Positions 2 through 17,387 of a stretch of 27,671 nt of DNA are shown here, in pieces. Each line of letters begins with the position of its first letter. Positions within the stretch are counted from its first letter, which is position 1. Below the pieces are notes generated by a model. That model was not told the origin of the DNA. It searched no databases and was given only the letters and a program-made list of their open reading frames with translations. The DNA comes from a virus. The position numbers and the translations under genes are program-made. The DNA lies in the IMG/VR virus record IMGVR_UViG_3300045996_000338, positions 1-27,671 of that record, one strand, 5' to 3'.

Positions 2-2800
2 TTACCTACTACATTAGTGGGTGGGACTGTATCGGGTTTCAGAGATAGTGGTGGCCGAATTAGAGGGGTTGGGGATGCTACTACAAGAGACGTTCTATTT
101 GGTACTACTCGTGGAGCATTAGGGGCAGGATTAAATAGGTTCCAACAACTCGGGCCAGTGAAAGGAATAGGGGCTATAGGTGCGGTAGTTGGTGGATTAG
201 CCCTATTAGATAAAGCAGCTACGTCTACAGATGCGACAACGAAACAAACAATAGCTTCTGTACTTCAACTAGGTGGAGCTATAGGTTTAGCTATACCCGG
301 ATTCCAAGCGTTCGGAGCAGCAGCTATTGGTGCGGGTACATTGCTCTCATTATTCGGTAACGAAGCAGCGGAAGCAGAGAAAGATGTTAAGGCTTCAGCC
401 GTAGCTATCTATGACACCCTGCAAACACTAAATAGATCACAGGCAGATGTTGAAACGTTTACTAAGGCTCAAAGAGACGCTTCTAGAGATATAGATCGTA
501 TAATAAAAACAGGTAAGACGGATGAGCAGGCTAAAATTGCTCAAACTGATGCTACAAATAGATTCGTAACTGCTACACTATCATTGGCTAGTGCGAACAA
601 GGCTGTTTCTGACTCTTTCGATGATCTTTTACTTAAGCTAGATAGTATTGGCGGTAGCTACGCTGAATATAAAAACATCATTGGCAATGCTGCGAGAGGA
701 CCAAATAACGCTGTAGTCCAAAGATTATCCGCAGAAATTGCTACAGAGATTCTTCGCGCAACAGGTACACCGCTCTATCTTCCAGAGGGTCAGCGAAGAC
801 CTATACCTACGGGGGAATTTAAGGTTCCTCCTTTAGAGCTATCTGTTAACGCTGAGAAAATTTTATCTCAGCATATATTTGACGAGGGGGGCCAGTATGG
901 ACAAGTTAGAACGCTAACTCCCGAAAATATTGGTAAACTTATTGATGTGGATACGGGTAAGTTTAACTTTGATGTTCTTCCTTCCCAAGAAAACTTATTA
1001 AAGCTGTCATCCGTTATACAACAGCTAGCTACTGATCCACTAGATTTTAACCAGACTCAGATTGATACCCTACAACGAACCGTTCAAGATTTCTTAGTAG
1101 CTAACTCAACCTTTTATGCTATACAAACTACACTATTGACGGATCAGGCTCGTATCCAAGCATTAGGATCGATTGGTGCCCTGAGAGGGGAAGATTTGAA
1201 AAATGCTACTCTTCGAAATCAACTAGGAATACAGCTACAAAGCCTATTAGGTAATGCAGATGCTCCTAGAACACCCCAAGACCGAGCCGCTTTAGGTCCA
1301 CAAGCTACCTATGACGTTCGGGTAGGCATTGATCAGGAACAAGTACGTGATTTAATTAAGGAAATTACAGAAACAGCCGATGGTGAGATAAACATAAAGG
1401 CTTTTGATGGTGATGAATTAGAGAAGGTAGGAGAAACCCTTCTTAGACTAAAGGAAATATTCCCAGAGATAAGCGCGCAAGGGGAGCAAGCTTTGCAGAG
1501 GGGAATTATTGAAATGCTTCTAGAGGGTGGAGTTGAAGCTCAAACTTTAGAGGAAGAATTAGGGCATATACCGGGTGTATTGGAAGCTATATCTGACGAA
1601 GCAGCAGAAGCAGCAGAAGAGCTTAAAAAGGCGTTCCAAGGAGCAAGGGACGAAGCATTAAATTCTTTGGCTCAACGAAATGCTGCACTTCAAGCGGGTG
1701 AAAATAGTGGTCAATATGAAGACAACGCTGCTGGATTAGCAGCACTAAAGGATCAAAGCCAGCAAGCGTATGATTCTCAAATAGCATTGATTAATGCTAT
1801 TGAGGGATTAAATTCTAAGGCTCTACCTGAACTACAGGCTCAATTAGCTAATGTTGTTGGTATGGAAAACGCTACTATTCTTTCAAGTGATCAGCTATCA
1901 GCAGCGTTTATTAACAATGCATTAGATGCCGGGGTTAGTGCTGAGGGTATCGTAAAACTACAAGGAAAACTATTAACTCTTATCGATGTTATGGATCGAA
2001 TTTCTAAACTTAGAGTTAAGTTTACAATTAAGGGTGAAGTTTTCACAGATGTATCGCAGCATATTGCGGCTTTGAAAATCTATCAAAAAGCTACAGCAGC
2101 GGCTCTTAAGAATAATCCTTTCATTGGCCCTACAACCGGAGGCGTTACATCATCCGCTTTTAAAGAATTAAATGAGGCGATTGCTGAGTTAGAGGGTCTA
2201 AGTGGAGAGCTAGATAATCTTACTGGTGGGATAAATAAGACAATAGGCTCTGGTACTGGCTCTAGCTTTGGGCAGTTACCTAAAAGTGGTAGCGGCAGCA
2301 GTGCTGCTTCAAAGGCTAGTGGGCCAGATGTATCAACACTTGATCTTCCAGAAGAGATTGCTAACGCTATGAACAGAGCAGCACTTATTCAGGAAGCTAT
2401 TAAGAGAGCGAAAGAGCTACAGGCAAAGATTCCGGGTGCAAGTAAGGAAGCACAGAATGACATTGTTGAGTTGCTACATGGTACTCAGCACATTCTAGAG
2501 GTTAGAGGCGTTAAGGATGACTTGCTACGAAAGGCTCTTGAAGAGCTAGCCGAAATCGAAAGAAAGAGACTAGAGTTTGAAACAAAAGCTGACACGATCC
2601 GACGAATTAGAGTTGGTGCAGGAAGCTTTGCAGCTATTGCTAACGTTCCAGTAAACACTAAGACAGGAGTTTCATTAGGTGGCGCAGAAGGTCCAATCAA
2701 TATTTCATTGAACCTTAACGGTACTGTACTAACTCCTGCACAGTTAGCACAATTCGCTGATCTTGTGGCATCAGCACTAAAGAGACAGCTAGCTAGCTAA
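2..2800 (+). CDS. Tape measure protein, C-terminal part (5' end outside window)
   Basis: The reading frame is open from the first bases, so the gene begins upstream; the GTG at 17 is probably internal. The visible part is 932 residues. The tape measure runs through the tail tube, sets tail length and is ejected with the DNA. Evidence: great length, Ala/Gly-rich hydrophobic stretches near the visible N-terminus (around residues 50-115, membrane-helix-like), long Ala/Glu/Lys/Leu-rich probable coiled coils (about 520-620 and 780-870), and a Ser/Gly-rich linker near 755-780. The C-terminal tail has the NLNGTVLTPAQLAQFADLV pattern often seen at the end of siphovirus tape measures. It sits directly before a Dit-like gene, the canonical order. 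The stop codon overlaps the AAGGAGGT ribosome-binding site of the next gene. I see no peptidase domain in the visible part. Confidence 0.85.
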   Translation, partial: LPTTLVGGTVSGFRDSGGRIRGVGDATTRDVLFGTTRGALGAGLNRFQQLGPVKGIGAIGAVVGGLALLDKAATSTDATTKQTIASVLQLGGAIGLAIPGFQAFGAAAIGAGTLLSLFGNEAAEAEKDVKASAVAIYDTLQTLNRSQADVETFTKAQRDASRDIDRIIKTGKTDEQAKIAQTDATNRFVTATLSLASANKAVSDSFDDLLLKLDSIGGSYAEYKNIIGNAARGPNNAVVQRLSAEIATEILRATGTPLYLPEGQRRPIPTGEFKVPPLELSVNAEKILSQHIFDEGGQYGQVRTLTPENIGKLIDVDTGKFNFDVLPSQENLLKLSSVIQQLATDPLDFNQTQIDTLQRTVQDFLVANSTFYAIQTTLLTDQARIQALGSIGALRGEDLKNATLRNQLGIQLQSLLGNADAPRTPQDRAALGPQATYDVRVGIDQEQVRDLIKEITETADGEINIKAFDGDELEKVGETLLRLKEIFPEISAQGEQALQRGIIEMLLEGGVEAQTLEEELGHIPGVLEAISDEAAEAAEELKKAFQGARDEALNSLAQRNAALQAGENSGQYEDNAAGLAALKDQSQQAYDSQIALINAIEGLNSKALPELQAQLANVVGMENATILSSDQLSAAFINNALDAGVSAEGIVKLQGKLLTLIDVMDRISKLRVKFTIKGEVFTDVSQHIAALKIYQKATAAALKNNPFIGPTTGGVTSSAFKELNEAIAELEGLSGELDNLTGGINKTIGSGTGSSFGQLPKSGSGSSAASKASGPDVSTLDLPEEIANAMNRAALIQEAIKRAKELQAKIPGASKEAQNDIVELLHGTQHILEVRGVKDDLLRKALEELAEIERKRLEFETKADTIRRIRVGAGSFAAIANVPVNTKTGVSLGGAEGPINISLNLNGTVLTPAQLAQFADLVASALKRQLAS

Positions 2801-2810
2801 GGAGGTAACG

Positions 2811-3563
2811 ATGCCACTAGGTCCAGCACAACAATATTTAGCAAATTATAACTCATTCACCTTACCGGGTTATGTCCAGCAGGAAGAGCTAGAAAATACA
2901 TCTAATATCGCTGGTCATAATGCTCCTTATGCTGACGGATCAGAGTCAGAGTATACAGGGCTACAGAATAAGTTGCTAGCTCTCACACTAAAGGTGTGGG
3001 AGCCTGATTATTTGTCCTGTAAAAATGAAGTACAAAAGGCCGCAACAATAGTTAGAAGTAAGAAAGATAGCTTCGCACCTTTGTATGTCCATTATTCAGA
3101 TAGATACTATGAAGCCATGACTCGGGATATCAAAGTAAGCAAGACCGCAGGAACGTCTGTAAGGACGCTAGATTACACAGTTAACTTTGAGTGCCGCCCT
3201 TGGCTTACAAGCGTGTCTGGACACACTCTGACGGGCACAGGGACGATTGACACAGACTCCGTTGGCCGGACTATCGATAATGGTGGCTGGACACCGACAA
3301 TTATCACGGTGACAGGCACAAATGTAACGATTTCTGGTTACACAGCTACGGGAGATTTCGCAGGATATATCAGCATATCTGGTGCTGTCTCAGGGTTAGT
3401 AATTAACTCTGAGGATTATTCTGCGGAAATCGGGGGCATAAATAAAAATAATGTAATGCTATGGACAGACTACAGAATGTATGTGGGTCCGGGTAAGACG
3501 TATTTCACTAGTACAGGGGCATCTTCTGTATCTATATTCTATAGAGATAGGTGGTATTTGTAA
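2811..3563 (+). CDS. Distal tail (Dit-like) protein, first copy
   Basis: 250 residues, ATG start 4 nt after a perfect AAGGAGGT site. Dit proteins form the ring at the tail tip that joins the tube to the Tal hub and adhesins. The call rests on position right after the tape measure, on length, and on architecture: an N-terminal half with Y-N-S/G-Y-x-L-P-G-F/Y, a W-E-P-D/N-Y motif and a V-N/D-F-E-C-R/K-P-W strand typical of tail-ring beta barrels. A C-terminal beta-sandwich follows (T-G-T-N-V-T-I-S-G-Y, Y-V-G-P-G) and ends in Y-R-D-R-W-Y-L. A clear paralogue forms the last ~245 residues of the protein encoded at 6964-11301, also ending Y-R-D-R-W-Y-L. The stop codon overlaps the next start (TAATG). 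The family call is from context and pattern; no search was run. Confidence 0.7.
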   Translation: MPLGPAQQYLANYNSFTLPGYVQQEELENTSNIAGHNAPYADGSESEYTGLQNKLLALTLKVWEPDYLSCKNEVQKAATIVRSKKDSFAPLYVHYSDRYYEAMTRDIKVSKTAGTSVRTLDYTVNFECRPWLTSVSGHTLTGTGTIDTDSVGRTIDNGGWTPTIITVTGTNVTISGYTATGDFAGYISISGAVSGLVINSEDYSAEIGGINKNNVMLWTDYRMYVGPGKTYFTSTGASSVSIFYRDRWYL

Positions 3564-5020
3564 TGGTAGAGCAGTACGAGAATAACTACTCAACACAACT
3601 TAATGGAGCTATCGATTCAGACGATACAACCATCGTAGTTGATGCTGCCCCTGTTACTATGACAGGTAGCTTTAGGATTAAGATCGACAATGAGTTAATT
3701 CTCGTAGGTTCTGTATCAGGTACATCATTTACAGGCTGCACAAGGGGTGTAGAAGGTACTACAGCGGCCTCTCATAGCGATAACGCTATCGTTAAGCATG
3801 TATTAACTGCGGATGCTTTAGAAAATATTATTTCTGAAACTGTCTCAGGTATACCAGTTACAACCCTTGGTTATAACACAGTAGGGGCTTCTACTCTTAG
3901 CCCCGGTGCAGATAATAGGGGACAAGCAAAGAAAGTAACTATTACACAGGCTGGTACCATATTAGGTGTATCTGGATATTTTAAAATGGTAGGAGGTCCG
4001 GGTACGGGAGCGTTATGGGGAGCCGTATATACAGATAATGCGGGAGTACCGCATAAACCTATGGGCGGGGCTTATACCCAATATAGACAGGTCATTTTAG
4101 ATGCTAATGAAGATTTAGGGTGGTTCCATATACCTGTAAATGTTCATGTTGATTCGGCTACTGATGTGTGGATTGTAGTTGGTAATGCATATCAAGCAGG
4201 GTTTTTACGTTTAACATATGACGCTAGTGGTACTGACTATGAAATAACTTTCAGTCAATTGCCTTGGCTAGCGGAAGTTGGTATGAGTGGAGGGTATGCT
4301 ACAGCTTCCTCAACTACTCGTAAGCACTCAATTCGTGCGCATTTTCTACCCGATGGAGTCGCACCTTCCCCAACTGATCCTATTGATATAGTGTTTGGTA
4401 CACCAGATACAGCATATGAATTTGATACTACTAGCCTAACAGGTTTAACAAGCCTATCCACTACACCAGATGTAATGAATGCAAATACTACAGTACCACA
4501 TCATCTATATATTAATGACAATGCGGGTACAGGTGGAGCAACACAGCTTGTAGGACTTTATGCATCAAAAAGCCCCCCATTTACAGCCATTTGTAAAGTA
4601 GGCGACGCAACTACCTATACCGATTATAACTGGTTTGGTATGTTTTGTGGTGTAGCAACACCGGGCAAAATGTTAGCTGCGGGAGTTGCTTATGATAGTG
4701 GTGTAGCACTTAGGACCGTTAGAATTAATAGCCCTACGGATGGATCAGGAACAGTCGGTAATGCCGTAAGAAATGCTCCCTTTTTAATTGATGTTAATAA
4801 TTCCTATTTCTGTGTACGGGCTGCTTCTAGTACAGACGTTAGCATATATTGGAGTAGAAGTGGGTATATCTGGTATCCAATTGTTCTCAATGATAATAAT
4901 ACGATGACAGTGGGTTCAGTAGGTCTGTATATTCTTTCAAATAATACAACAGCGCCCGGTATGAGTGCTGCATTTGATTATTTAAGAATTTGGGATTCAA
5001 CCCTAACTATAGTAACTTAA
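3563..5020 (+). CDS. Tail adhesin with shared N-terminal beta domain and lectin-like C-terminus
   Basis: 485 residues from the ATG at 3563, which overlaps the previous stop (TAATG); an in-frame GTG at 3551 lies inside the previous gene and is less likely. Residues 1-90 are a small beta domain (A-I-D-x-D-D-T-T, I-D-N-E-L-I-L-V-G, T-R-G-V-E-G-T-x-A-A-S-H) that recurs at the start of the next two genes. By hand count about 60 of 86 residues are identical to the copy at 6076. This domain type is common as a mounting unit in phage tail proteins. A middle domain (about 105-260) is followed by a concanavalin-like beta domain (about 275-485) with Y-W-S-R-S-G-Y-x-W-Y-P. Likely a host-surface-binding tail-tip protein; the ligand is unknown. 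Confidence 0.6.
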   Translation: MVEQYENNYSTQLNGAIDSDDTTIVVDAAPVTMTGSFRIKIDNELILVGSVSGTSFTGCTRGVEGTTAASHSDNAIVKHVLTADALENIISETVSGIPVTTLGYNTVGASTLSPGADNRGQAKKVTITQAGTILGVSGYFKMVGGPGTGALWGAVYTDNAGVPHKPMGGAYTQYRQVILDANEDLGWFHIPVNVHVDSATDVWIVVGNAYQAGFLRLTYDASGTDYEITFSQLPWLAEVGMSGGYATASSTTRKHSIRAHFLPDGVAPSPTDPIDIVFGTPDTAYEFDTTSLTGLTSLSTTPDVMNANTTVPHHLYINDNAGTGGATQLVGLYASKSPPFTAICKVGDATTYTDYNWFGMFCGVATPGKMLAAGVAYDSGVALRTVRINSPTDGSGTVGNAVRNAPFLIDVNNSYFCVRAASSTDVSIYWSRSGYIWYPIVLNDNNTMTVGSVGLYILSNNTTAPGMSAAFDYLRIWDSTLTIVT

Positions 5021-5035
5021 ACTAAGGGGAATAAA

Positions 5036-6058
5036 ATGGTAGAGGTATTTTCAAATGATTATCATACGACTCTAAGTGCAGGAATAGATGATGATGATAC
5101 TACATTAATTGTAGCGTCAGTTACAGGTCGTCCCACAGGGGGAGAATTTCGTATCATCATTGATCCTGAAACTGCGTCCGCAGAAATATGTACTGTAACA
5201 AGTGTATCGACTAATACCTTTACAGTAACTAGAGCTAGTGAAGCTGTCGCTGGCGTTCAAACTGCCTTTGCTCATAACTCTGGTGCCGTAGTTTCTCATG
5301 TAATAACTGCGGGAAGTTTATCACGAGCAAATCCAAGTTTATTATACTCTGTTAAAACCAGTGTAGATACCCCTGATGATGAGTTTAATTCAACAACTAT
5401 TGATGCTAAGTGGACAGTTGTATCAGGTACGGCAGGAACAGCAAGTCTATTCGGTAATGCTGGTGGGGCTACAAATGCGGTTTATGATCTATCTACTAGG
5501 CCCGGTTGGATGCTTATGCAAACAGGTACTACAACGGGTAACACTGTTCAATTAAGACAAGATTATACTATACCTGATGGCAGTAGCATAGTAGTAGCTT
5601 TAGCTATTGCTTCTCCGTCACAAGATGCAAGTCCCGGCCCCGGTTGGGCAGATAATGAATTACAAGTTGGTATTACTCTAAATACAGATGATACAGGGGC
5701 CACTGCGGGAGCAGCAGGAATTGATTTTTATGCCATGGAAGTAGATGCAAACTCTACTGATGTTCAAGTTGTAGGCAGAGGTATGACTTCTGGGGGCACT
5801 AGTATATCTACGATTTGGCGTCCTATTGGTACTATGATTTATTTACGTATAGCTAGAACAGGTTTAGTTTATTACCCTTATTTTTCTATGGATGGATTTA
5901 CATGGGCACCGATGGATGATGTTACTTTTGCATCAGCACTTACAAATATTTGGATATTCCATAGAAACGTAGCTACACAGGGAACACCTACAGGAGTTAC
6001 AGCATGGGCTTGGGTAAGATTAGGCAGTAATAATATCGATCCTTGGATATGGGCTTAA
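5036..6058 (+). CDS. Tail adhesin, second paralogue, concanavalin-like head
   Basis: 340 residues, ATG preceded by AAGGGGA. Residues 1-95 are the second and most divergent copy of the shared base domain (D-D-D-D-T-T-L, F-R-I-I-I-D, V-T-R-A-S-E, A-H-N-S-G-A-V-V-S-H-V-I-T-A-G). The rest (about 110-340) begins D-D-E-F-N-S-T-T-I-D-A-K-W and contains S-M-D-G-F-T-W-A-P. Both are hallmarks of the concanavalin-like lectin/glucanase jelly roll seen in many phage and bacterial surface proteins. No catalytic glutamate pair is obvious, so binding is more likely than hydrolysis. It lies 15 nt after the preceding paralogue, which suggests co-expression as interchangeable receptor-binding units. Confidence 0.6.
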   Translation: MVEVFSNDYHTTLSAGIDDDDTTLIVASVTGRPTGGEFRIIIDPETASAEICTVTSVSTNTFTVTRASEAVAGVQTAFAHNSGAVVSHVITAGSLSRANPSLLYSVKTSVDTPDDEFNSTTIDAKWTVVSGTAGTASLFGNAGGATNAVYDLSTRPGWMLMQTGTTTGNTVQLRQDYTIPDGSSIVVALAIASPSQDASPGPGWADNELQVGITLNTDDTGATAGAAGIDFYAMEVDANSTDVQVVGRGMTSGGTSISTIWRPIGTMIYLRIARTGLVYYPYFSMDGFTWAPMDDVTFASALTNIWIFHRNVATQGTPTGVTAWAWVRLGSNNIDPWIWA

Positions 6059-6075
6059 GTTAATTAGGAGAAATT

Positions 6076-6912
6076 ATGGCGGATCAATTTGAGAATAACT
6101 ACATAACACAACTTAATGGGGCCATCGATGCTGATGACACTACGCTAACTGTAGATGCTGCGCCATCAAGTATGACAGGTACTTTTCGTGTTCTTATTGA
6201 TAATGAATTAATACTTGTGGGAGCAGTCTCAGGGTTAACTCTTACGGGTTGTACAAGAGGTATAGAGGGTACTGTCGCCGCTAGTCATAACGATAACTCC
6301 ATAGTAACTCACTTACTTACAGCAGGAAGCATACAAACATTAGGAGGAAATACATACCCTGAAATTTATCAGGTAAAATTTGGGGGAACACAGATTTCTT
6401 CTCTAACACTAGATACTGCCCCGCCTAATGGAAGTAGTATTTTAATGTATTGTGATGCATACAATACGGCACATGTAACAGCGATAAGCTCTACTAATAC
6501 TACATGGACTAAACTGACTGATGTATCTGCGGGCGCTTATTATTCTCTATGGATAGGATTAGTATCTGGGGGCGCAGGAGGAACAGCAATTACGTTTACT
6601 CATGTTAACTCTTATCTGTCTGTCTTTGCTATAAACATAGCAGATACATTAACTGGAACACTTGGTACATCAGTATTCGGTGCGCAGAGTACAACTATAA
6701 CAACTCCTGCCGCACCAGCAGAAGGTAATTTAGTAGCTGTTTTTGGTGGCTTAGACAATACAACTTTAACAAACGATATTAGTGTATTAATACCAACATT
6801 AGGTTTTCCTACAGGAACAGTTTCAGGGGTGGTAGGATACTCACTTGGTAATAAAGTAACTGCTCAGTTTACTCCTAACGCGGGGAGATTAGTTATAGCG
6901 GAAATAACATAA
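6076..6912 (+). CDS. Tail adhesin, third paralogue, different beta head
   Basis: 278 residues, ATG after TTAGGAGAAATT. Residues 1-90 are nearly the same as the first paralogue, including I-D-N-E-L-I-L-V-G and T-G-C-T-R-G. The C-terminal ~185 residues are unlike the other two heads. They form an Ala/Thr/Ser-rich beta domain (S-S-T-N-T-T-W-T-K-L, Y-S-L-W-I-G, I-T-F-T-H-V) resembling small beta-sandwich domains common in tail-associated proteins of environmental phages. Same base with a different head argues for recombination at a module boundary near residue 90. The receptor is unknown. Confidence 0.55.
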   Translation: MADQFENNYITQLNGAIDADDTTLTVDAAPSSMTGTFRVLIDNELILVGAVSGLTLTGCTRGIEGTVAASHNDNSIVTHLLTAGSIQTLGGNTYPEIYQVKFGGTQISSLTLDTAPPNGSSILMYCDAYNTAHVTAISSTNTTWTKLTDVSAGAYYSLWIGLVSGGAGGTAITFTHVNSYLSVFAINIADTLTGTLGTSVFGAQSTTITTPAAPAEGNLVAVFGGLDNTTLTNDISVLIPTLGFPTGTVSGVVGYSLGNKVTAQFTPNAGRLVIAEIT

Positions 6913-6963: not shown

Positions 6964-9900
6964 ATGTTAGGGAATGATCAACTAGGGGATTTTATACTCG
7001 GGGGTGCCGAAGAAGATCAGCCTAGCATTACCTATGGTACAGGACAAGGCCAAGCTACTATTTTTGCAAGTAGTTATTCATTTGGTCAAGCCCAAGCATT
7101 AATACTTGTACTAGGTGTAAATAAGCACGCACAGGCCCAAGGGTTTATTCTTGATCTTAGTCTAACAAGTGTTTTAGGTATATCTGATTCTGTATTAGGG
7201 CGTAGTCTATTAGTAGGACTTGGTTCAGAGTTAGCTCCTATACCCTCTATGGTGGGGCAAGCACAAGCAAGCATTCTCACAGATGATTATCGCTATGTAA
7301 CATTAAATCAAACTCCTTTTGCTTACTTCCCTCTAAATGAACTAAGTGGGACTAACTACGATAATATCATGGGTACCGGAGACGGTACATCAGATGGCGA
7401 TACTATTACTCAGGGTGTTACACACGCCCTAGATAACTCTACAAATAATACTGCTATTACATTTGCTAATAGTGGCTTCTGGTCACGAATTGTAGCCCCG
7501 CTCACAGGTGTTCCGGTAAGTGCGGGTGGAGTAGTAACTGTTACAGGCTGGATTAAATTATCTTCTAGTAACAGTCAGATGTTTTTTGGTTGGAATGTTT
7601 ATGATCTGCATTTCAATGGTACAAATCTAGGATTTAATACTGGTAATAGTGATAACTACGGTTTTAATGCTACTGCCCTAGTTGGCAAATGGGTACATAT
7701 TGCCGCAGTATTTTATCACAACCAAAATTATACAATAGCTAATAAAATCTATATTAATGGTGTTGCACAAACACTGTCAGGTAGCTCTAACACCGGTTTA
7801 TTAACTACTACATTCCATCTTTCAGGTTGGGGAACAAATACAGGGGAATGGGCTAGAGGAACCTCTATGGATGAGGTTGCTCTATTTAATAGAGAATTAA
7901 CATCTACAGAAATTGCAGCACAATACAATGCAGGACAACCTAAAGCCTATGGACAAGCACAGGCAGTAATTGGTGAAGTAATACCTAGCATTTCTACATC
8001 TAAACCGGGTATTGCTCGTTTGGGTATTGCTAGATTAGGTACTGATCATGTTGAAGGGGAAGAGGATACTTCTAAGTATGCTCATGGACAAGCCCAAGCT
8101 AGAATACTTCAAACGTACTATACACATGGACAAAGCCAAGCAGATATCCTACAAACATATCAAGCTTACGGTCAATCACAGGCTAGAATAGGTAATGTTT
8201 ATTCCGTTCATGGACAGAGCCAAGCATTAATTCTTGCTCCCGCTAATGCGCACGGACAAGCGCAAGGTACGATCCTAGCCGTAAGTAATGGCTTGGGTCA
8301 ATCACAGGCTGATATCTTACAAACCTATCAATCTTATGGACAGGCTAATGCAACCATAGCATTAAGACAATACGTTCATGGTCAGAGTCAGGCTTGGATT
8401 AAATCAGTAGTTTATGGGCTTGCTCAGGCTCAGGCACTTATCTTTACGTCAACATGGAAAGTCGCGCAAGCACAAGCCCTATTAATTAATCCTATCTCTT
8501 GGCAATATGGTCAAGCACAGGCTATGGTCTATACAATTTATCTGTATGACTCATTTAGCCGAACAACATCATTAGGTGATCTAGGCTCACCTAATATTGG
8601 TCCTGATTACGAATACGAATCACCACTATTAAAGGTAAACGGCTCTAAATTAGAATTAGAGTCTGACGGAGACGCTGCTAATGTAGATATAGCAAGGGGT
8701 ATGTTTAAAGACCCCTATATTATCCAATTTGAATTTACTTCAAATGACTTTGATTTTTTCTACTTAGAAGTTTCAGACTCACGTTATTTCTACCTATATG
8801 AAAATAATAATAATCCATATATAAGCATCGAAGATGATGATAGTACTACTATATCTTTAGTTAATGATGAAACATACGTATTCAAGGCTTCGCATATTGG
8901 CGGCGTAATGCGTATGAAGGTATGGAATATCCTATCTGTTGAACCAGATTGGATGATTACTCTTTCAGGTTATCCAGATAATAGTAATAGTATTTTCCTA
9001 TATATAGACCCTGATACCGTATCAACTGTTTTAATTGATAACCTTCTTATTCTTACAAGTGGGGAAGGCCAACACCTTAAACAATCTTATGGTCAAGCTA
9101 GAGCATTTGTTAAGGCAAATAGACAAAAATTTGCTCAGGCACAGGCAGATATTCTAAAGAGCGACGGATACGGTCAAGCTAAAGCACAGATCATTCACTT
9201 TGATGCTAATAGAATGGGCCAAGCCCAAGCTATGATTAATCTAAAATTAGCAATAGGACAAGCTAAAGCATATGTTCAGCCTATATTTAGAAGAGTCGCA
9301 CAAGCGCGAGCAAGAATTAAAATACTAGGACAACAAGGATATGGACAAGCAAATGCCTTGATTATGCCTAGATTTAACCAGTTTGCCCAAGCGCAAGCAC
9401 GAATGTTAGGGTTCGATCAAGTAGTACATGGACAAGCCACAGGATTAGTTGACTCAGCTATTAAGGTCAACTCAGGTAATGCACACGCTGTAATTAGTAA
9501 ACGTATTCTTTTTGATACCTTCACCAGAACAACTACAAACGTAATTGGAACACCTGATCTTGGTAGTTATCAATCTTCTGATATAGCTAGTGGAGACGTA
9601 GATGGGTCACAATTAGTAGTTGTATTCCCAACTACATATGACGATGCATGGGCAGATGCAAGAGTACATGCAAGAAATATAATTACTTCTATCGAATTTA
9701 CTAGAAGTGCTACGCATGAAGATAACTACATGGAAATTTACGGGCGTGGAGCCAACGGTGGTGTGGCTATTTGGATATCAAATAACGAAGTTTATATTAA
9801 TAGACAAACCGCTGTTAATAATTCAAGTAGTTCACAAAAGATAGCAGACCTGACTATACTAGCTGGTGTTACATACGTAATGAAGCTGGTAATCGTTGAA

Positions 9901-11301
9901 GATCAAGTATTGGCAAAAATTTGGGATAAATCAACTCTTGAACCTGATTGGATGGGAAGCCTTACTATACAATACAATGATCGTATTGGTAGGGCAGGAT
10001 TTTATTTCGATAACTATGATGGTATTGATGGTATGGTAAGTACTGTCTATATTGATAATTATAGTATTGAAACTACAGATTACTATCAAAGAGCCTACGC
10101 GCAAACAAGAGCAAGAATCAAGTCTGTAGGACTACAGAAGTATGGTCAGGCTCAGGCAGAAATATCCCCGCCACTACCGGGAATTAAATCTGGTCAGGCA
10201 CAGGCTTTCATTAGCAAACTTGCTGGATATGGACAGGCATTAGCTACGATCTATGCAGCCTCTAGACGTTGGGGACAAGCCCAAGCATATATTAAGGAAT
10301 TTGAATTTAAATATGGACAAGCGAGGGCCTACATTCGGAAGGGAGATAACACTACTTACGGTCAAGCGCAAGCATACATTAGACCTAACGCTTATACAGG
10401 AAATGCACAGGGTTATATCTCAACTAAGCCAATAAAGACGGGACAAGCCCAAGCGTTGATTGCGCGAGGTCAGAAGCATGGACAAGCTAAAGCATACATC
10501 GTAGGTATAACAGGTACGCCGCCTCCGGGTACAACCCCACCACCAACAGGTCCGGGTAATGTAGTTAGAACATATATTGTTGATTACAATGGCTATCAGC
10601 TACCGGGATTTGCAACAGATGAATCTATGGAAAGTATTATGGAGATAGATGCTCATTCTGCGGCATATTATCAGATACCTTTCGTAGAGCATATGGGGCT
10701 TAGAAATAAGCTTGTCTCTATGACTATGGCTGTATGGGAACCTAACTACTACGTTGTGAAGAATAAAGTGCAGGAAGCTGCAACCATTATTCGATCTAAT
10801 AGAAGTGGTTATGCTCCACTATATATTCAACGAGTAGATCGTCACTATGAAGCTCTTGCTAAGAAGATATCCATGAGTGCTGTAGCAGGAGAGAGTGAGA
10901 GACTTGTTAAGTATCAAATTGACTTTGAATGTAAGCCATGGACTGTGAGCGACACAGAACATACATTGACAGGTACAACTACACTTGATACGGATGCTGT
11001 TCTCCGAGATTTGTATAGTGGTGGATGGACACCGACTAGAGTGGAAGTTACAGGTACAAATGTAACTATATCGGGTTATACAGACTTCGGAGAATTTGCA
11101 GGGTATATTAGTATTTCAGGAGCAGTATCAGGTTTGACAATAGACTCAGAAAATAATATAGTCGTAATGAATGGGGAAACTAGAAACGATGTTCTTTATA
11201 CACCGGATTACAGCCTGTACGTTGGGCCGGGAAGAACACGGTTCGATGTAACAGGAGCATCTAGTGTAACGATAACGTATAGAGATAGATGGTATCTCTA
11301 A
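6964..11301 (+). CDS. Giant repetitive tail adhesin: GQAQA repeats, lectin-like domains and a C-terminal Dit-like domain
   Basis: 1445 residues, ATG 4 nt after GGGGTGA. In order: repeat block A (about residues 25-106), LamG-like jelly roll (about 108-325; A-Y-F-P-L-N-E, W-V-H-I-A-A-V, I-Y-I-N-G, M-D-E-V-A-L-F-N-R-E-L), block B (329-522), jelly roll 1 (527-697; K-V-W-x6-E-P-D-W-M), block C (709-845), jelly roll 2 (849-1039; K-I-W-x6-E-P-D-W-M), block D (1045-1179), a Pro/Gly/Thr linker (1183-1199) and a Dit-like domain (1201-1445) paralogous to the protein at 2811-3563. The blocks hold about 36 copies of [YHF]-[GA]-Q-[AS]-[QRK]-A-x-[IV] every 12-19 residues. Likely role: an elongated virion adhesin attached to the tail tip through its Dit end. 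The repeat fold is unknown; its alternating pattern suggests beta structure. The gene is followed 10 nt later by the Tal-like gene. Confidence 0.65.
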   Translation: MLGNDQLGDFILGGAEEDQPSITYGTGQGQATIFASSYSFGQAQALILVLGVNKHAQAQGFILDLSLTSVLGISDSVLGRSLLVGLGSELAPIPSMVGQAQASILTDDYRYVTLNQTPFAYFPLNELSGTNYDNIMGTGDGTSDGDTITQGVTHALDNSTNNTAITFANSGFWSRIVAPLTGVPVSAGGVVTVTGWIKLSSSNSQMFFGWNVYDLHFNGTNLGFNTGNSDNYGFNATALVGKWVHIAAVFYHNQNYTIANKIYINGVAQTLSGSSNTGLLTTTFHLSGWGTNTGEWARGTSMDEVALFNRELTSTEIAAQYNAGQPKAYGQAQAVIGEVIPSISTSKPGIARLGIARLGTDHVEGEEDTSKYAHGQAQARILQTYYTHGQSQADILQTYQAYGQSQARIGNVYSVHGQSQALILAPANAHGQAQGTILAVSNGLGQSQADILQTYQSYGQANATIALRQYVHGQSQAWIKSVVYGLAQAQALIFTSTWKVAQAQALLINPISWQYGQAQAMVYTIYLYDSFSRTTSLGDLGSPNIGPDYEYESPLLKVNGSKLELESDGDAANVDIARGMFKDPYIIQFEFTSNDFDFFYLEVSDSRYFYLYENNNNPYISIEDDDSTTISLVNDETYVFKASHIGGVMRMKVWNILSVEPDWMITLSGYPDNSNSIFLYIDPDTVSTVLIDNLLILTSGEGQHLKQSYGQARAFVKANRQKFAQAQADILKSDGYGQAKAQIIHFDANRMGQAQAMINLKLAIGQAKAYVQPIFRRVAQARARIKILGQQGYGQANALIMPRFNQFAQAQARMLGFDQVVHGQATGLVDSAIKVNSGNAHAVISKRILFDTFTRTTTNVIGTPDLGSYQSSDIASGDVDGSQLVVVFPTTYDDAWADARVHARNIITSIEFTRSATHEDNYMEIYGRGANGGVAIWISNNEVYINRQTAVNNSSSSQKIADLTILAGVTYVMKLVIVEDQVLAKIWDKSTLEPDWMGSLTIQYNDRIGRAGFYFDNYDGIDGMVSTVYIDNYSIETTDYYQRAYAQTRARIKSVGLQKYGQAQAEISPPLPGIKSGQAQAFISKLAGYGQALATIYAASRRWGQAQAYIKEFEFKYGQARAYIRKGDNTTYGQAQAYIRPNAYTGNAQGYISTKPIKTGQAQALIARGQKHGQAKAYIVGITGTPPPGTTPPPTGPGNVVRTYIVDYNGYQLPGFATDESMESIMEIDAHSAAYYQIPFVEHMGLRNKLVSMTMAVWEPNYYVVKNKVQEAATIIRSNRSGYAPLYIQRVDRHYEALAKKISMSAVAGESERLVKYQIDFECKPWTVSDTEHTLTGTTTLDTDAVLRDLYSGGWTPTRVEVTGTNVTISGYTDFGEFAGYISISGAVSGLTIDSENNIVVMNGETRNDVLYTPDYSLYVGPGRTRFDVTGASSVTITYRDRWYL
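7036..7281 (+). repeat. GQAQA repeat block A (about 4 units)
   Basis: Four coding units, G-Q-G-Q-A-T-I, F-G-Q-A-Q-A-L-I, H-A-Q-A-Q-G-F-I and V-G-Q-A-Q-A-S-I, irregularly spaced. It is the shortest and most degenerate block, at the N-terminus of the giant adhesin. Confidence 0.75.
7948..8530 (+). repeat. GQAQA repeat block B (about 12 units)
   Basis: Twelve coding units, many of the form H/Y-G-Q-S-Q-A-x-I. Two two-unit segments (around 8122-8190 and 8296-8355) encode the near-identical G-Q-S-Q-A-D-I-L-Q-T-Y-Q stretch with different synonymous codons, so the repetition is stronger in protein than in DNA. Confidence 0.85.
9088..9498 (+). repeat. GQAQA repeat block C (about 10 units)
   Basis: Ten coding units such as Y-G-Q-A-R-A-F-V, F-A-Q-A-Q-A-D-I and I-G-Q-A-K-A-Y-V. 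The fifth position varies among Q, R, K, N, T and H, and the last two units are degenerate. The block lies between the two E-P-D-W-M jelly rolls. Confidence 0.85.
10096..10500 (+). repeat. GQAQA repeat block D (about 10 units)
   Basis: Ten coding units ending H-G-Q-A-K-A-Y-I. Tyrosine before the last hydrophobic residue (A-Y-I) is favoured in this block. A Pro-rich linker separates it from the C-terminal Dit-like domain. Confidence 0.85.
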
Positions 11302-11311
11302 GGGAGATTAA

Positions 11312-14300
11312 ATGCTGCAAGTAAAGATCACAGAGTTTGATGGCAGTGATGCTATCATCTTAGAGAGAGCTAAATCCTTAACAGTATTCGAAGCTGTTAA
11401 CTCATCTGATGAAGGGGTATCCTTTAATATTGCCAAGAATGATCCCAAGGCATACATAGTTAATCCTGATCAGGAGGGCTATAAAAAGTTTTGGGAGGTA
11501 TGGGATACAGTCACTAATGAGAGGGTTAACTATGGTCCTATTACGTCTATCACTGAACAAGGGACTGACTTTCGGGTAGAGGGTGCGGGTCGATCCGCCC
11601 TTCTACTCGATTTTTATAAGACTACAAAAACTTTCTACACTCCGATTGATTCTATCATAGATGACATTAGGTATGAAAACCTAGCTGTTCAGCCGCGTAC
11701 TACAACATTGGTCCATAAGGCAGATGATACAGCAGCACAGGATACAATCTTTGGCGCTACTGATATTAATGAGAAGTACGCTGGACTTAGCTTACAAACT
11801 AAAGATAACGTTATTGATGATAACTCTGGTCTGGTAAGACCGGGCGAAATCGAGCCACCAAATACTTATCATTCTACTGATTCTTTCTGGGCAGGACAGG
11901 GTAAGGTCGATAGTCACATCATAGATTTAGGCGACGTATATAGCGTCTCTAAATTATTATTGATACTTCCTTCATGGGGTGGATCAGAGAGAAAAGGTAA
12001 CAGAACCTATGACTTTGAATTAGCCTATGCAACGGATACTGAGGCTACTTTAACGTCCTTTAACGGAAGAGAGATAGGCCCATTTCATGCGTTATATGAT
12101 ACTGGCGCAGAGAGCCATTTACTCATGGGTAATAGACCCGGTGGTTCTTTCTACATAGGTGCGGGTAACATGAATGTAGGATTAGATGATCCTACTTTCT
12201 ATGTGGCTACTGAAGTACCGGGAACATCCTTAGATATGAGATACATTCGTACCAGAATTTATGACGTACATGCTTGGTACGGTAGCGTATTGGATCAGAG
12301 TCCTGCGGTAGATAAATGGCGCTTCCAGTGCGATCCTACATATGAACCGGGAGACGAGGTTACAACTCCTGCGGATGCTCCGGGTGTCATGGAAGGTAAG
12401 GTAATTAACGAGAGGGAGTTAGAGCCAGCTAACGATTGTTTCGCCTCTATCATTGAGCTAGGTGTTTATAAAGAAATACTAGGGCGTGGAGACTTAAAGC
12501 CTTTAGCCCTACAGAGAATTGATAATAATAACCTACAAATTATCTATTCTCACCAGCCAGAGGCATCGGAAACGGTTACTACACCACAAGGATTCCGTAA
12601 GTTTGAGCCGGGGGGATTCTTTAGAGCAGTTAGTGTGAATTATTCGGGTGCAAGCTCAACTTACTCTAAATTTTATGATGATGATTGTGCAGATTGTTAT
12701 CCAGATAACTTTAACTTTGGTGTAATGGATCAAAACAATAGTCTTATCTTGTCTAGGGATCAAAGCTCGGGTACAGGAGTAACAGTTAAGTCTGGAGCAT
12801 ACACAAGTTATATTCTAATGAAGGGCGCATCTAATGCTGTAGTTACTCACGCTGATTCTTGGCCCGCTGTTACTGACCCTCTTTCTTGGGGAGGTTCCTA
12901 TAGCTATACAAAGATAGTAGGGGATTACGCTATCCTTCATTTTAGGGGCCAATCTCTTAGATGGTATGCCACGCTACCCGATGGGGAAACACCAGCAGAG
13001 GTTAGCATAGAGATTAGAAACAAGGATACTAATGGAGAATGGACAGGTTGGACTACATTAGAAAGTAGTTTCACTCTCCCTACAGGATCATATAATGCTG
13101 AGCCTGTGTATGAAATCAGCTATGAGTCAGGTGCCCTACAGCCTGAAACCGTATATCAGATTAAGATAACTAATCTAGATGGTAACTATCTAGCAATCGA
13201 TTCATTCGAAGGTTATTGGTCTAGCTCTATGACTAGCTACAATGAGGACAACTCCCGAATTGGTGTTAGTGCTCCTGAAAGACTCTCACAAATCTATGAT
13301 AGAAGATTTAGTGGTGGGTCGATGTATAAGTGGAATAATAATACATTCTTTAACTTCGTGTTTGAAGGAGATAGAATTGTATTATACTCAGCTAAGGGTA
13401 GAAACCATGGTAAGATTAGAATTATCCTAAGAAAGAGTGGACAAGGTTCTTACTTCTATGATGATTATCCTACCGATACTACAGTATTAATTCCGGGGGG
13501 AAACCCTACCGATGGAAGCCTCTCTATCGATCTAGAGACAGGGAAGCGGGGGGCAGAAATTCCACAGTTTGTAGCTTTCGATTCTAATGATTATTTTCCT
13601 GACGGTTTGCCATGGAGTAAGTATCTATTTGGTATCTATTTGCTACCGAGTGAAATTGATACCTATACAACAACTGACGTAGCAGCTTCAAACAATTTCA
13701 TTGAACGTTGCTCAGATTGTGAAGCACCAATAGGTGAGCCAGTTACTATAGCAAAGCATGTGTATTTCGATGGACTAGCTACGCATGAAAAGGTTGGGCT
13801 ATCAATTTCATTTGAGAATGAAGCTCATTTAGACATACTAAAAGCAGTAGCAGAAGCTACTCAAACTGAGTGGGATATAAATGAGGCGGGAGTTAATCTT
13901 GTCCCTCGTCTTGGTGAGGATACAAATGAGGTTCTACGAGAGGGACAAAATACGATGGTAGATTGGCAGATAGTTAATGATGTTAATAAGGTAGCTACAC
14001 AGCTAGTATCTAGTGGTGCCGATATCGATGGCTTGCCTCTATTTACTATTACAGAGGATAAGAAAACGCGCGCAGATGTAGGCCGAACCATTATGAGAAA
14101 GGAAGACTTCAGAAATATTGCTGACTACTTCCAACTTATCGGCCTATCACGAGTAGCATTAAGGAAGAGACGAAGACCTGAAAAACGGATCACCGTAACT
14201 CATATTACGAAACGATTTGCATTAAATAAGGGAGACTCATTTATACTCTATACTAATAAGATGGGGCCACTCAGAGTAAGGATCATGAAAAAAGAGAGAA

Positions 14301-14365
14301 GTCAGGCTGCCCAAAGTGGCTTTGAGTATAGATTGGAGTGTATACAATGGCCTCAGATAACTTAA
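11312..14365 (+). CDS. Tal-like tail hub protein with inserted carbohydrate-binding-type domains
   Basis: 1017 residues, ATG after AAGGGAGATTAA. The N-terminal ~115 and C-terminal ~220 residues resemble the hub (gp27/ReqiPepy6 gp37-like) domains of siphovirus tail-associated proteins: a Y-N-P/F-x-I-x-L-like opening, V-x-G-x-G-R-S-A-L-L, and a C-terminal N-K-V-A-T-Q, S-R-V-A-L-R-K-R-R-R-P and N-K-G-D-S-F pattern. Between them lie an F5/8-discoidin-like domain (about 187-327; H-I-I-D-L-G-D-V-Y, Y-I-R-T-R-I-Y-D-V) and two jelly rolls. These are at about 532-637 (I-L-H-F-R-G-Q-S-L-R-W-Y) and about 660-740 (F-V-F-E-G-D-R-I-V-L-Y-S-A-K-G-x-N-H-G-K), the second like domains in glycan-active enzymes. 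No peptidase motif is visible. The likely job is the central tip hub with glycan binding. The end overlaps the next gene by 19 nt. Confidence 0.6.
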   Translation: MLQVKITEFDGSDAIILERAKSLTVFEAVNSSDEGVSFNIAKNDPKAYIVNPDQEGYKKFWEVWDTVTNERVNYGPITSITEQGTDFRVEGAGRSALLLDFYKTTKTFYTPIDSIIDDIRYENLAVQPRTTTLVHKADDTAAQDTIFGATDINEKYAGLSLQTKDNVIDDNSGLVRPGEIEPPNTYHSTDSFWAGQGKVDSHIIDLGDVYSVSKLLLILPSWGGSERKGNRTYDFELAYATDTEATLTSFNGREIGPFHALYDTGAESHLLMGNRPGGSFYIGAGNMNVGLDDPTFYVATEVPGTSLDMRYIRTRIYDVHAWYGSVLDQSPAVDKWRFQCDPTYEPGDEVTTPADAPGVMEGKVINERELEPANDCFASIIELGVYKEILGRGDLKPLALQRIDNNNLQIIYSHQPEASETVTTPQGFRKFEPGGFFRAVSVNYSGASSTYSKFYDDDCADCYPDNFNFGVMDQNNSLILSRDQSSGTGVTVKSGAYTSYILMKGASNAVVTHADSWPAVTDPLSWGGSYSYTKIVGDYAILHFRGQSLRWYATLPDGETPAEVSIEIRNKDTNGEWTGWTTLESSFTLPTGSYNAEPVYEISYESGALQPETVYQIKITNLDGNYLAIDSFEGYWSSSMTSYNEDNSRIGVSAPERLSQIYDRRFSGGSMYKWNNNTFFNFVFEGDRIVLYSAKGRNHGKIRIILRKSGQGSYFYDDYPTDTTVLIPGGNPTDGSLSIDLETGKRGAEIPQFVAFDSNDYFPDGLPWSKYLFGIYLLPSEIDTYTTTDVAASNNFIERCSDCEAPIGEPVTIAKHVYFDGLATHEKVGLSISFENEAHLDILKAVAEATQTEWDINEAGVNLVPRLGEDTNEVLREGQNTMVDWQIVNDVNKVATQLVSSGADIDGLPLFTITEDKKTRADVGRTIMRKEDFRNIADYFQLIGLSRVALRKRRRPEKRITVTHITKRFALNKGDSFILYTNKMGPLRVRIMKKERSQAAQSGFEYRLECIQWPQIT

Positions 14366-16944
14366 AACAAGTCGGACAGTTTATTAAGAATACAAGAAAG
14401 GGTGTAGATCATGCTCTGAAGCGATACCATGGGGACATTCCAAAGGTAGAGCGGACACGAGATATCTTTGACTCAGAGATACCCTTTGAAATGAATTTCA
14501 GCACGGAAAAGCCGGGAGAGAGGGTTCTCTTGAACCTAAATTTTAACAAACCTCCCCCGATGAATGACTGTGTAGCTGATTGTTTAGAAGCAAGGTGTGA
14601 ATCATTCACGCTACAACCGGGAAATCATATTGTGCAGTTAGCACAAGGATATACTGCTGGCACCATAACTGTGTTTGTAGATGCTGTTCCTGTGCTGGAT
14701 TCAGACTTTGATGAAGTCGATCCTGCTAATGGTACGGTTTACATTCAAAGTGAATCTTTAGACACGTATGTAGCTACTGTATGTTATACGTTTGGTACAT
14801 GCGTAGGTGATGATGAAGGCTGCATAGATTATCCTTCGCCCGGTGGTTATACTGGACTAGCTGTAATATTTGCTGATCGCTTCGATAAGTCTTTTGTAGA
14901 AGTCGAGCCTAGATGTGGGCAATGGGGTCTAGATGATAGCCCTACAATAACATTAAATGGTGATGGTACGGCTAATATTAACGAAACCATTTACTTAGAA
15001 AATGAAACAATGGTTGGCCCACAGTGGGAAGTCTTGGTACGATTTAGATTTCCCGCCACTTTTAGTACTTCTGTTTTTAGGTTAGAAGCTTCAAGTGGTG
15101 GTAATGGATTTAACTCATTTCTTACTATTGGTCCGTGGGGACAAGGAGCCGTAGCATCAAGAGCAATTACTTTGTCAGGACGATATGAGGGGCTTGATCC
15201 AACTTCTACTGGTTTAGCATGGACAGAAACGGGAGCAACGACCTCAACTACCTATAAAGAATTTCCTACAGATGAAACACAAGAATACTATGTAAGGTAT
15301 GTACAATATGTAGGGGTGGGGTGGTTTGCAAAAATTTGGAATGTAACAGAAGAAGAACCGGCTGCATGGACTGCTAGTTTATGGGCTATTCCCGCTCCTG
15401 TTAATCCAGCAGTTACTCGTCAAGAGTGGGTAAGTCATAATCTTCAAAAATTACTTGTTACTTCAACTGCTGTTCGTCATATTACTGTGTGGGGACAGGG
15501 TTCAGTAGGAAGATGGGTTGGATTTAGTAGTGGTACTACTTGGGCCTATGATGACTGTTATCCTAATCCCGATGGTTTGATTAGATTTGGTCATTGTGAT
15601 GAATTTTCACAAACCATTTCAGGTCCAACTAATCAAGGAAGTCATAGCTCTGACGTTTTAACGCCTAGTGCATTAGTTAGTTACTCCTCCCCTATTTTTG
15701 CTACTGGTCCTAATGCTAAAACAGGTACCTCTCAGGGTATGGTATCTTTTTCAGTACCAGAAGGCTGTACATCGGTGATTCTTGAATGTGAGTATCGTAT
15801 GACAGGTAACAGCGCATGGAATGGGTTTGGTTCTACAGCTACAATATATCAATATGATTTTGGTACTACTCCACCATCACCGGGACCGGGGAGATTGCCG
15901 GGATCAAGCGTTACTTCTTTTAGTGGTCCTGTTAATGGTCCGGGTTGGTTGCCTCTTACGTTTAGCATTACACCCATAAACAATCAAGTACAGTGGGGCT
16001 TTATGGTTGTTACTGATGCTTCTGGATGGCCTCCTGCCGAATCTGGTTTCCTGTTTCCGCCCAATGGCGGTCTTAGTGTTCAGTTTAGACAAAAAAGAAC
16101 CTTTGCATTAGGTGTAATGCACTGTACAACTAGACCCGGATGCCCTGTAGATGAACAGGATATATTTAGTAATTGTGGAGATAGTTATGACTCTCTTTTA
16201 AATGCTACTAATTATGACTTTTATTGTGGAGTAACTGTAAATACACCTACTAACGATATATTTAGGTATTACACTAATGATTCAGGTAGTAGAACACGGA
16301 TGCGTTCACAGATTGGTACAGCGGTTACAAGCACCAGCGATGGGGCAAGAATTAGTTGGCGAGCAAGAGGACGAACCTTTGATGGGTCTGATGGTAGATG
16401 TAGAAAGGCATTAAGTGGCACTTCTTTTGATGATAGTACAAGAGGAACATCATCTACAACAGCAGCCGTCACGTTTAACTTCACAAGCCCTGTCGTATGT
16501 GAGGGCGGGGCATTAAGTCAGTTTGAATTTAAACTTAACTCTATGCCTCAAAGTCAATGGACAACAACAGGAAATACTCTAACCACACCGGCTTTTGAGC
16601 TTACTTTTGGGGACGACCCAATCACGTTTACTAGTTTTATTTTAGAGCGTGCAGTTAATGGATCATTTATTAGTACAAATGGCATGGGACCGTTTTTAAG
16701 TGATGCTACATTTAGTGGGGGGCTTGATATAGGAGATTGGTATTCGGTCAAATATTTAGCAGATGGGTCTAATGTAAAAATGAAGATTTGGAAATCATCT
16801 GGAAGCGAGCCGGGATCATGGTATCACGAAGCACTCATTGCAGAAGCAAATCAGGGGGGCTTTACTATAAGTTTAAGCTATAGTAATTTCTCAGAAGATG
16901 GCTTTAGCGTAGATGTAAGAAATGTATCGTCGGTGAGGCCGTAA
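14347..16944 (+). CDS. Large tail adhesin with cysteine-containing base domain and two EPxxW jelly rolls
   Basis: 865 residues from the ATG at 14347, with TTGGAG 8 nt upstream; a GTG at 14338 overlaps that site and is unlikely. Residues 1-160 are a base domain shared with the next gene: R-A/T-R-D-I-F-D, P-F-E-M-x-F, D-K-P-like turn, P-P-P followed by Cys75, Cys79 and Cys84, and a later I/V-C-Y. Then a concanavalin-like jelly roll (about 173-415, K-I-W-x6-E-P-A-A-W), a middle beta domain with a Pro/Gly-rich segment (about 420-600), and a last jelly roll (about 605-865, K-I-W-x6-E-P-G-S-W). It is rich in Cys, Thr and Ser. It follows the hub gene, where receptor-binding proteins usually lie. Its stop overlaps the next start (TAATG). 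Confidence 0.6.
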   Translation: MASDNLKQVGQFIKNTRKGVDHALKRYHGDIPKVERTRDIFDSEIPFEMNFSTEKPGERVLLNLNFNKPPPMNDCVADCLEARCESFTLQPGNHIVQLAQGYTAGTITVFVDAVPVLDSDFDEVDPANGTVYIQSESLDTYVATVCYTFGTCVGDDEGCIDYPSPGGYTGLAVIFADRFDKSFVEVEPRCGQWGLDDSPTITLNGDGTANINETIYLENETMVGPQWEVLVRFRFPATFSTSVFRLEASSGGNGFNSFLTIGPWGQGAVASRAITLSGRYEGLDPTSTGLAWTETGATTSTTYKEFPTDETQEYYVRYVQYVGVGWFAKIWNVTEEEPAAWTASLWAIPAPVNPAVTRQEWVSHNLQKLLVTSTAVRHITVWGQGSVGRWVGFSSGTTWAYDDCYPNPDGLIRFGHCDEFSQTISGPTNQGSHSSDVLTPSALVSYSSPIFATGPNAKTGTSQGMVSFSVPEGCTSVILECEYRMTGNSAWNGFGSTATIYQYDFGTTPPSPGPGRLPGSSVTSFSGPVNGPGWLPLTFSITPINNQVQWGFMVVTDASGWPPAESGFLFPPNGGLSVQFRQKRTFALGVMHCTTRPGCPVDEQDIFSNCGDSYDSLLNATNYDFYCGVTVNTPTNDIFRYYTNDSGSRTRMRSQIGTAVTSTSDGARISWRARGRTFDGSDGRCRKALSGTSFDDSTRGTSSTTAAVTFNFTSPVVCEGGALSQFEFKLNSMPQSQWTTTGNTLTTPAFELTFGDDPITFTSFILERAVNGSFISTNGMGPFLSDATFSGGLDIGDWYSVKYLADGSNVKMKIWKSSGSEPGSWYHEALIAEANQGGFTISLSYSNFSEDGFSVDVRNVSSVRP

Positions 16945-17387
16945 TGTCAGACTATGCACGACAAGTAGGAAGGGAATTAAATCAGCAGGGACAAGATACA
17001 CATGATGCCCTTAATAGGTATGCTCAAAGACCTGTAGCACTAGAGCGGGCAAGAGATATATTTGATCCTGTTGTACCGTTTGAAATGGAATTTTATACGG
17101 ATAAACCACAGTCTAAAGTTATGCTAGACTTATTCTTTTTGGGGCCTCCACCATCTAAGTGTTGTAGCAATAACTTATGTTCTAAGTGTGAGGTATTTGC
17201 TGACGGTTCAGAAGTAATAACATTAGAGCGCCCCTATGTAGCAGGAAGTGTCATTCCTTATGTTAAGGGTACAAGACGGACTGCGTTTACAGAAACTAGT
17301 CCAGAGACAGGAGTAGTAACTATTAATACAACCGTAGCAGTTGGAGACGTAGTAAGAATATGTTATGTATATTTATATGAGGAGTAA
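16944..17387 (+). CDS. Short 'headless' paralogue of the adhesin base domain
   Basis: 147 residues, ATG overlapping the previous stop. Its whole length aligns with the first ~160 residues of the preceding 865-residue protein: A-R-D-I-F-D-P, V-P-F-E-M-E-F, G-P-P-P followed by Cys73/74, Cys79 and Cys82, and R-I-C-Y. It ends just after the conserved I-C-Y strand, where the long paralogue continues into its jelly rolls. It may occupy the same attachment position without a head, or work as an adaptor. The cysteines could bind a metal or form disulfides; that is inference. Confidence 0.6.
   Translation: MSDYARQVGRELNQQGQDTHDALNRYAQRPVALERARDIFDPVVPFEMEFYTDKPQSKVMLDLFFLGPPPSKCCSNNLCSKCEVFADGSEVITLERPYVAGSVIPYVKGTRRTAFTETSPETGVVTINTTVAVGDVVRICYVYLYEE

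Follow-up and report, generated by a model that had tools for sequence, protein, structure and literature searches.

Three tandem fibre-like genes of a siphophage-like virus share an N-terminal β-domain and differ in their distal parts

The IMG/VR virus record IMGVR_UViG_3300045996_000338 (27,671 bases, analysed at its full length and referred to here as the window) contains three adjacent genes, designated c1, c2, and c3, whose products have an approximately 86-residue N-terminal domain (the base) in common and continue into three different distal parts (the heads). We consider it likely that the three products are part of the virion, with tail fibres or receptor-binding proteins of a siphophage-like tail as their most likely identity, and that they use the base for docking. 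The first-pass annotation, made from the DNA letters, had described one base with different heads, and blastp and shuffle tests showed this description to be right. The socket-and-head arrangement that it proposed is borne out by (i) the match of the base to the N-terminus of the tail fibre of phage GP4; (ii) the presence of the c3 head on another stem in the phage of locus L004; and (iii) the replacement of the whole gene slot in two relatives.

Organization of the c1–c3 genes

The three genes had been reported as adjacent plus-strand ORFs, and their limits were confirmed, with all three ORFs intact (Table 1). The c1 gene starts at ATG 3563, with GTG 3551 as a possible alternative start, and shares one base with the stop codon of the gene before it; a purine-rich stretch lies directly upstream of the ATG in both c2 and c3. 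The genes are located in a tail-tip gene block, between a Dit-like gene and large tail genes, in an order that is kept in the two nearest relatives, L086 and L087. The Dit-like call is based on the L086 ortholog, which over 252 residues shares 50% identity with the C-terminus of P0005, the product of the large repeat gene downstream of the slot; this C-terminus matches SPP1_Dit weakly (E 4.6e-4, below the cut-off).

Table 1. Features of the c1–c3 slot and its flanks in the window
Feature	Position	Strand	Description
Probable tape measure gene, end	2..2800	+	Inferred name, based on position and on long ORFs that match it in relatives
Dit-like tail protein, upstream of slot	2811..3563	+	Kept in L086 (73%) and L087 (68%)
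c1	3563..5020	+	485 aa, fibre-like; base ~1–86, then two regions, ~90–275 and 275–485
c1 base domain	3563..3817	+	A2 profile E 1.6e-34 (A2 includes the c1 base sequence itself)
c2	5036..6058	+	340 aa, fibre-like; divergent base and head of ~245 aa
c2 base domain	5036..5317	+	38–43% identity to c1 and c3 bases
c3	6076..6912	+	278 aa, fibre-like; base residues 1–86, head residues 92–278
c3 base domain	6076..6333	+	Predicted all-β fold; block mean pLDDT 74–95 over residues 11–80
c3 head	6349..6909	+	59% identity to part of L004 7770–8561, whose N-terminus differs
Large repeat protein, downstream of slot	6964..11301	+	Lectin-like inserts; C-terminal copy of the Dit-like domain

In outline, a tandem set with a common base is reminiscent of arrays of alternative tail fibres of which one is expressed at a time through DNA inversion or a diversity-generating retroelement. 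However, c1–c3 are intact and all on one strand, the repeats found are short and imperfect (inverted arms of at most 19 nt that are 78–88% complementary), and the proteins scanned include none named as an inversion-type recombinase or a reverse transcriptase; we regard such a switch as highly improbable.

A shared base followed by different heads

The earlier claim that the first ~90 residues are paralogous in all three products holds for the ~86-residue N-terminal domain. Without gaps, 61 of the first 86 residues are identical between c1 and c3 (about 60 had been counted by hand), and the blastp comparison, with composition correction off, gave an E value of 1.5e-41 for this pair. The c2 base is divergent, as had been noted, with 43% identity to the c1 base (E 1.3e-13) and 38% to the c3 base (E 4.9e-13). 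The identities between c1 and c3 per 10 residues are 6, 9, 8, 5, 9, 7, 8, and 6, followed by 3, 2, 1, 3, 0, and 0, and this drop places the break between the two modules at residues 81–90.

Beyond approximately residue 90 the sequences had been called unrelated or differently arranged. Local-alignment scores of eight head pairs in all were compared with those of 2,000 shuffles, and six of the eight pairs were chance-like and one was borderline. The observed score was reached by 865 of the 2,000 shuffles for the first distal region of c1 against the c3 head, by 267 for the second distal region of c1 against the c3 head, by 187 for the c2 head against the c3 head, and by 176 for the first c1 region against the c2 head. 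The borderline pair consists of the second c1 region and the c2 head (10 of 2,000 shuffles; blastp E 0.006–0.008 without composition correction). The same c1 region is unmatched in the c2-like head of locus L089 described below (1,070 of 2,000 shuffles), and a kinship with the c2 head is no more than possible.

The bases as old paralogs

The close DNA similarity of the c1 and c3 bases had been read as a sign of recent duplication or gene conversion, and this reading did not survive. Alignment of the bases at the DNA and protein levels confirmed the paralogy of the proteins and revealed no synonymous identity in excess of the codon-usage expectation. As a null model, c3 was recoded at random 3,000 times with its protein fixed and with the codon usage of the window. 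The DNA identity of the two bases is 174 of 258 positions, at the level predicted from the proteins (171.4 ± 4.5 in the recodings, of which 964 of 3,000 reach 174), and the same codon is used at 27 of the 61 identical residues (expected 25.8 ± 3.6). The NG86 method over 88 codons gave a dS of 3.47 and a dN of 0.23, that is to say, the synonymous sites are saturated. The protein-predicted level of DNA identity, together with this saturation, points to an old duplication without recent gene conversion, and the three bases are, judged from their sequences, old paralogs. One exact 15-base run near the start of the c1 and c3 bases could be taken as a trace of recent copying, and a run of 15 is reached in 193 of the 3,000 recodings; against the codon sharing, the DNA identity, and the dS, recent copying is hardly credible, and we rejected it.

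The base resembles a β-domain known from solved hub, tube, capsid, and fibre structures

A profile of 20 base sequences (A2) was compared with the chains of solved structures. It matched the hub protein of phage Chi (8vjh, E 2.9e-9) and residues 5–94 of the GP4 tail fibre (8jov, E 1.7e-4), and more weakly VP1 (9in6, E 0.036) and JBD30 (8rk3, E 0.052). The entry 8VJH is named as Chi in the excerpts of PMC11945409. The predicted c3 base, taken from an AlphaFold2 model of c3 (confidence in Table 1), was then compared with solved folds using VIA-align 2. It aligned with (i) JBD30 8rk3 residues 479–559 (Z 10.3, RMSD 2.0, 75 residues aligned); (ii) GP4 8jov residues 8–96 (Z 10.2, RMSD 2.4, 78 residues), where the library chain comprises 116 of 439 residues, the N-terminal part only, of an entry with 18 chains; (iii) the capsid protein VP1 9in6 residues 59–157 (Z 10.1, RMSD 2.7, 83 residues); (iv) the tail tube protein of Mystique, 9n71 residues 103–180 (Z 8.0, RMSD 2.1, 71 residues); and (v) lambda gpJ 8k35 residues 489–566 (Z 7.4, RMSD 2.6, 70 residues). 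Chi 8vjh is absent among the VIA-align 2 results for the c3 base, and the link to Chi is made by the sequence profile. Foldseek with the whole c3 model found nothing at E ≤ 0.001 and gave long, poor alignments across the low-confidence head. Chains of F1/V-ATPases aligned with the base at Z 5.7–7.1, which we took as a common barrel arrangement and rejected as kinship.

The base has no Pfam or NCBIfam match. The PHROG families matched by c1–c3 include those of tail fibres, tail proteins, and virion structural proteins, and the position of the domain varies among them from N-terminal to internal; tail-fibre families in which it lies near the N-terminus are phrog_38058 (residues 18–102 of 708) and phrog_8469 (residues 6–170 of 303). 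Among the 50 BFVD matches listed, several bear the name tail fibre protein.

On the basis of profile and predicted fold, the base is a known kind of β-domain, a widespread virion module that is N-terminal in one solved tail fibre. The same fold is seen in hub proteins, one tail tube, and one capsid protein, and the base is accordingly a general virion module rather than a fibre-specific one. The hub and tip proteins of siphophages share the fold (lambda gpJ residues 483–569 and JBD30) or the sequence profile (Chi); in these proteins the domain is an insert, whereas in c1–c3 it forms the N-terminal base of separate proteins. Excerpts of PMC10721106 describe lambda gpJ residues 483–569 as a β-sandwich inserted in the HDIV domain, and excerpts of PMC11101478 describe an OB domain in an HDIV loop; from these excerpts, we infer that the two are one domain.

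The tail fibre of GP4 (entry "Portal-tail complex of phage GP4") is among the closest parallels, with an N-terminal β-domain like that of c1–c3. By its profile match and predicted-fold similarity, a conserved N-terminal module of the fibre-anchoring kind is present in c1–c3 and would anchor them. GP4 is a podophage, unlike the window, which looks siphophage-like; its fibre also has another distal part and is a single protein rather than three tandem paralogs.

Distribution of the base and a structural role as an alternative

Scanning of viral contigs with an alignment of the three bases yielded 80 loci, the best 80 of 95 passing stretches. The survey of ORFs, which covered the loci apart from L001–L003 and the later L088 and L089, found at least 88 ORFs with the base, 85 of them outside the window. 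In 7 of these ORFs (c1–c3, L029, L054, and two genes of L063), the base begins no more than 16 residues after the start of the ORF; in most of the surveyed ORFs it is internal rather than N-terminal, in a sample that is biased by its recovery through one motif and by truncated contigs. At L063 (575–2735), a gene for a 289-aa base-headed protein comes directly after that of a major head protein (phrog_283, E 6.5e-71), and from this arrangement some base-bearing proteins may sit on the capsid.

These data bear on the possibility that c1–c3 serve to build or decorate the tail or capsid, for instance as arms, collars, or head fibres with a general affinity for surfaces, instead of binding specific receptors. 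The fold of the base is present in hubs, one tail tube, and one capsid protein as well, a base-headed gene adjoins the major head protein gene at L063, and the phage of L004 encodes a base-bearing collagen-like protein between two putative glycosyltransferase genes (our reading), off its tail genes. By contrast, c1–c3 lie inside a tail-tip block between a Dit-like gene and further tail genes, in a slot that varies between relatives, and we judge a general structural role to be unlikely.

The slot is replaced as a whole in the nearest relatives

The gene order around the slot is kept in L086 and L087, where the Dit-like gene (identities in Table 1) is accompanied by relatives of the 1017-aa gene at 11312–14365 (72% identity in L086 and 45% in L087). 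Both relatives have the order tape-measure-like gene, Dit-like gene, one gene, repeat protein gene, and hub-like gene. The single gene in the slot is unrelated to c1–c3 and encodes 335 and 351 aa, respectively, and both products belong to phrog_2448, a family of unknown function in PHROG. The base domain was not found in the L086 and L087 records (54,144 and 120,336 bases; possibly fragments). Thus, the slot is variable as a whole. Scanning with an alignment of the Dit-like protein again returned L086 and L087 only, with none in genome contigs.

Heads and their exchange

None of the c1, c2, and c3 heads matches a family in Pfam, PHROG, or NCBIfam. The c3 head was modeled with low confidence (blocks mostly at pLDDT 36–74), and the c2 head model, built from a two-row alignment, has a mean pLDDT of 35.6; both head models were unusable. 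As for a concanavalin A-like (laminin G-type) lectin fold, the c1 and c2 heads gave no Pfam match, and Laminin_G_3 occurs only in the neighbor P0005.

Residues 92–278 of c3, that is, the entire head, are 59% identical to residues 78–263 of a 263-aa protein encoded at L004 (7770–8561). The base profile found nothing in this L004 gene, the N-terminus of which differs from the base, and the cut falls on the same module boundary. The GC content is 66.7% in L004 and 41.9% in the window, and the two otherwise share one weak match; therefore, the c3 head crossed between unrelated phages, long ago. This is the single clear example of a variable C-terminal module exchanged at the boundary. The L004 gene is flanked by a 1253-aa ORF, which reads like a tape measure to us (it matches no PHROG family), and an 817-aa ORF that weakly matches a tail fibre. 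A more distant c3-like head (36% identity, residues 94–199) was found in L005, where it belongs to a 632-aa protein whose N-terminal portion is again a different one.

A second locus of the L004 phage, L089 (163–2580), encodes an 805-aa protein with an N-terminal base that is most similar to that of c2 among the three (41% identity), collagen-like G-x-y repeats with a second copy of the base inside them, and a C-terminal c2-like head (25% identity; 0 of 2,000 shuffles). Its gene sits away from the tail genes between two ORFs that we read as glycosyltransferases. From the sequence comparison, this protein is a retained c2-like base–head pair, which argues against free swapping. Base and head could accordingly be fixed, co-inherited pairs, the mosaic appearance arising mainly from divergence and from whole-gene loss and gain; the joint presence of the c2-like base and head in this one protein and the whole-gene replacement in the two nearest relatives agree with this. 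The c3 head on an unrelated N-terminus in the same L004 phage speaks against it, and we consider fixed pairing unlikely.

Direct scanning of viral contigs with c1 and c2 gave no relatives. The c3-head alignment recovered only the two already known loci from viral contigs and nothing from genome contigs, and the scan with the c2-head pair found none. With these near-empty scans and that with the Dit-like protein, the pairing of base and head is judged on very few phages. The contig names of L086 and L004 both carry the metagenome number 3300036851, so the nearest relative of the window and the phage that shares the c3 head come from one sample set.

Docking and receptor recognition

In our preferred reading of c1–c3 as fibre or receptor-binding proteins, the N-terminal β-domain would dock c1, c2, and c3 onto the tail tip, as suggested by the GP4 fibre and by the gene position. 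The three different heads would then widen or diversify what the phage can touch; an adhesin-like role of the heads in receptor recognition is suggested by position and modularity and, for receptor binding, by the general behavior of modular receptor-binding proteins in the excerpts of PMC8262889. In these excerpts, the receptor-binding proteins of Klebsiella phages have an N-terminal module that attaches to the tail and a C-terminal specificity module that is exchanged horizontally. The layout of a structural N-terminal and an exchanged C-terminal module is the same in c1–c3, a likeness of module layout and not of compared bases; according to the same excerpts, the Klebsiella phage heads are tested depolymerases, unlike the c1–c3 heads. 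Base and distal part would have behaved as separate modules over long times, with the c3 distal part placed on another stem and the slot replaced whole.

The window offers a clean natural separation of base and head in an uncultured phage group. The ties of the base to solved domains of hubs, a tail tube, a capsid protein, and a tail fibre could allow candidate fibre genes to be spotted in metagenomic phages whose heads are unmatched. The known picture of modular receptor-binding proteins is unchanged, and modular fibre building is ordinary in phages. A broader and distinctly speculative idea, which we hold to be improbable on balance, is that a single small β-family acts as a socket unit for virions at large, inserted in capsid, tube, and hub proteins and N-terminal on fibres. 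If so, fibres would be added and exchanged on many virions through the same kind of contact, and the window would be a compact case, with three fibres on one tail and heads crossing between phages of 42% and 67% GC.

Other features of the surrounding genes

In the product of the large repeat gene downstream of the slot (1445 aa), a short GQAQA-type motif is matched 29 times, often at a spacing of ~14 residues. These repeats are broken by a Laminin_G_3 domain (E 2.4e-10) and by two mutually related inserts, and are followed by the C-terminal domain that resembles the L086 Dit-like protein. The motif is matched 18 times in the L086 ortholog, which begins with another repeat, and 9 times in that of L087. 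An N-terminal domain is also shared elsewhere in the window: the 147-aa product of 16944–17387 and the first 150 residues of the preceding 868-aa product (14338–16944) have 35% identity (E 1e-24), and this pairing recurs in L086 (626 and 146 aa). Downstream of the tail block, a glycosyltransferase gene is located at 18159–19337 (phrog_2170, E 2.4e-46).
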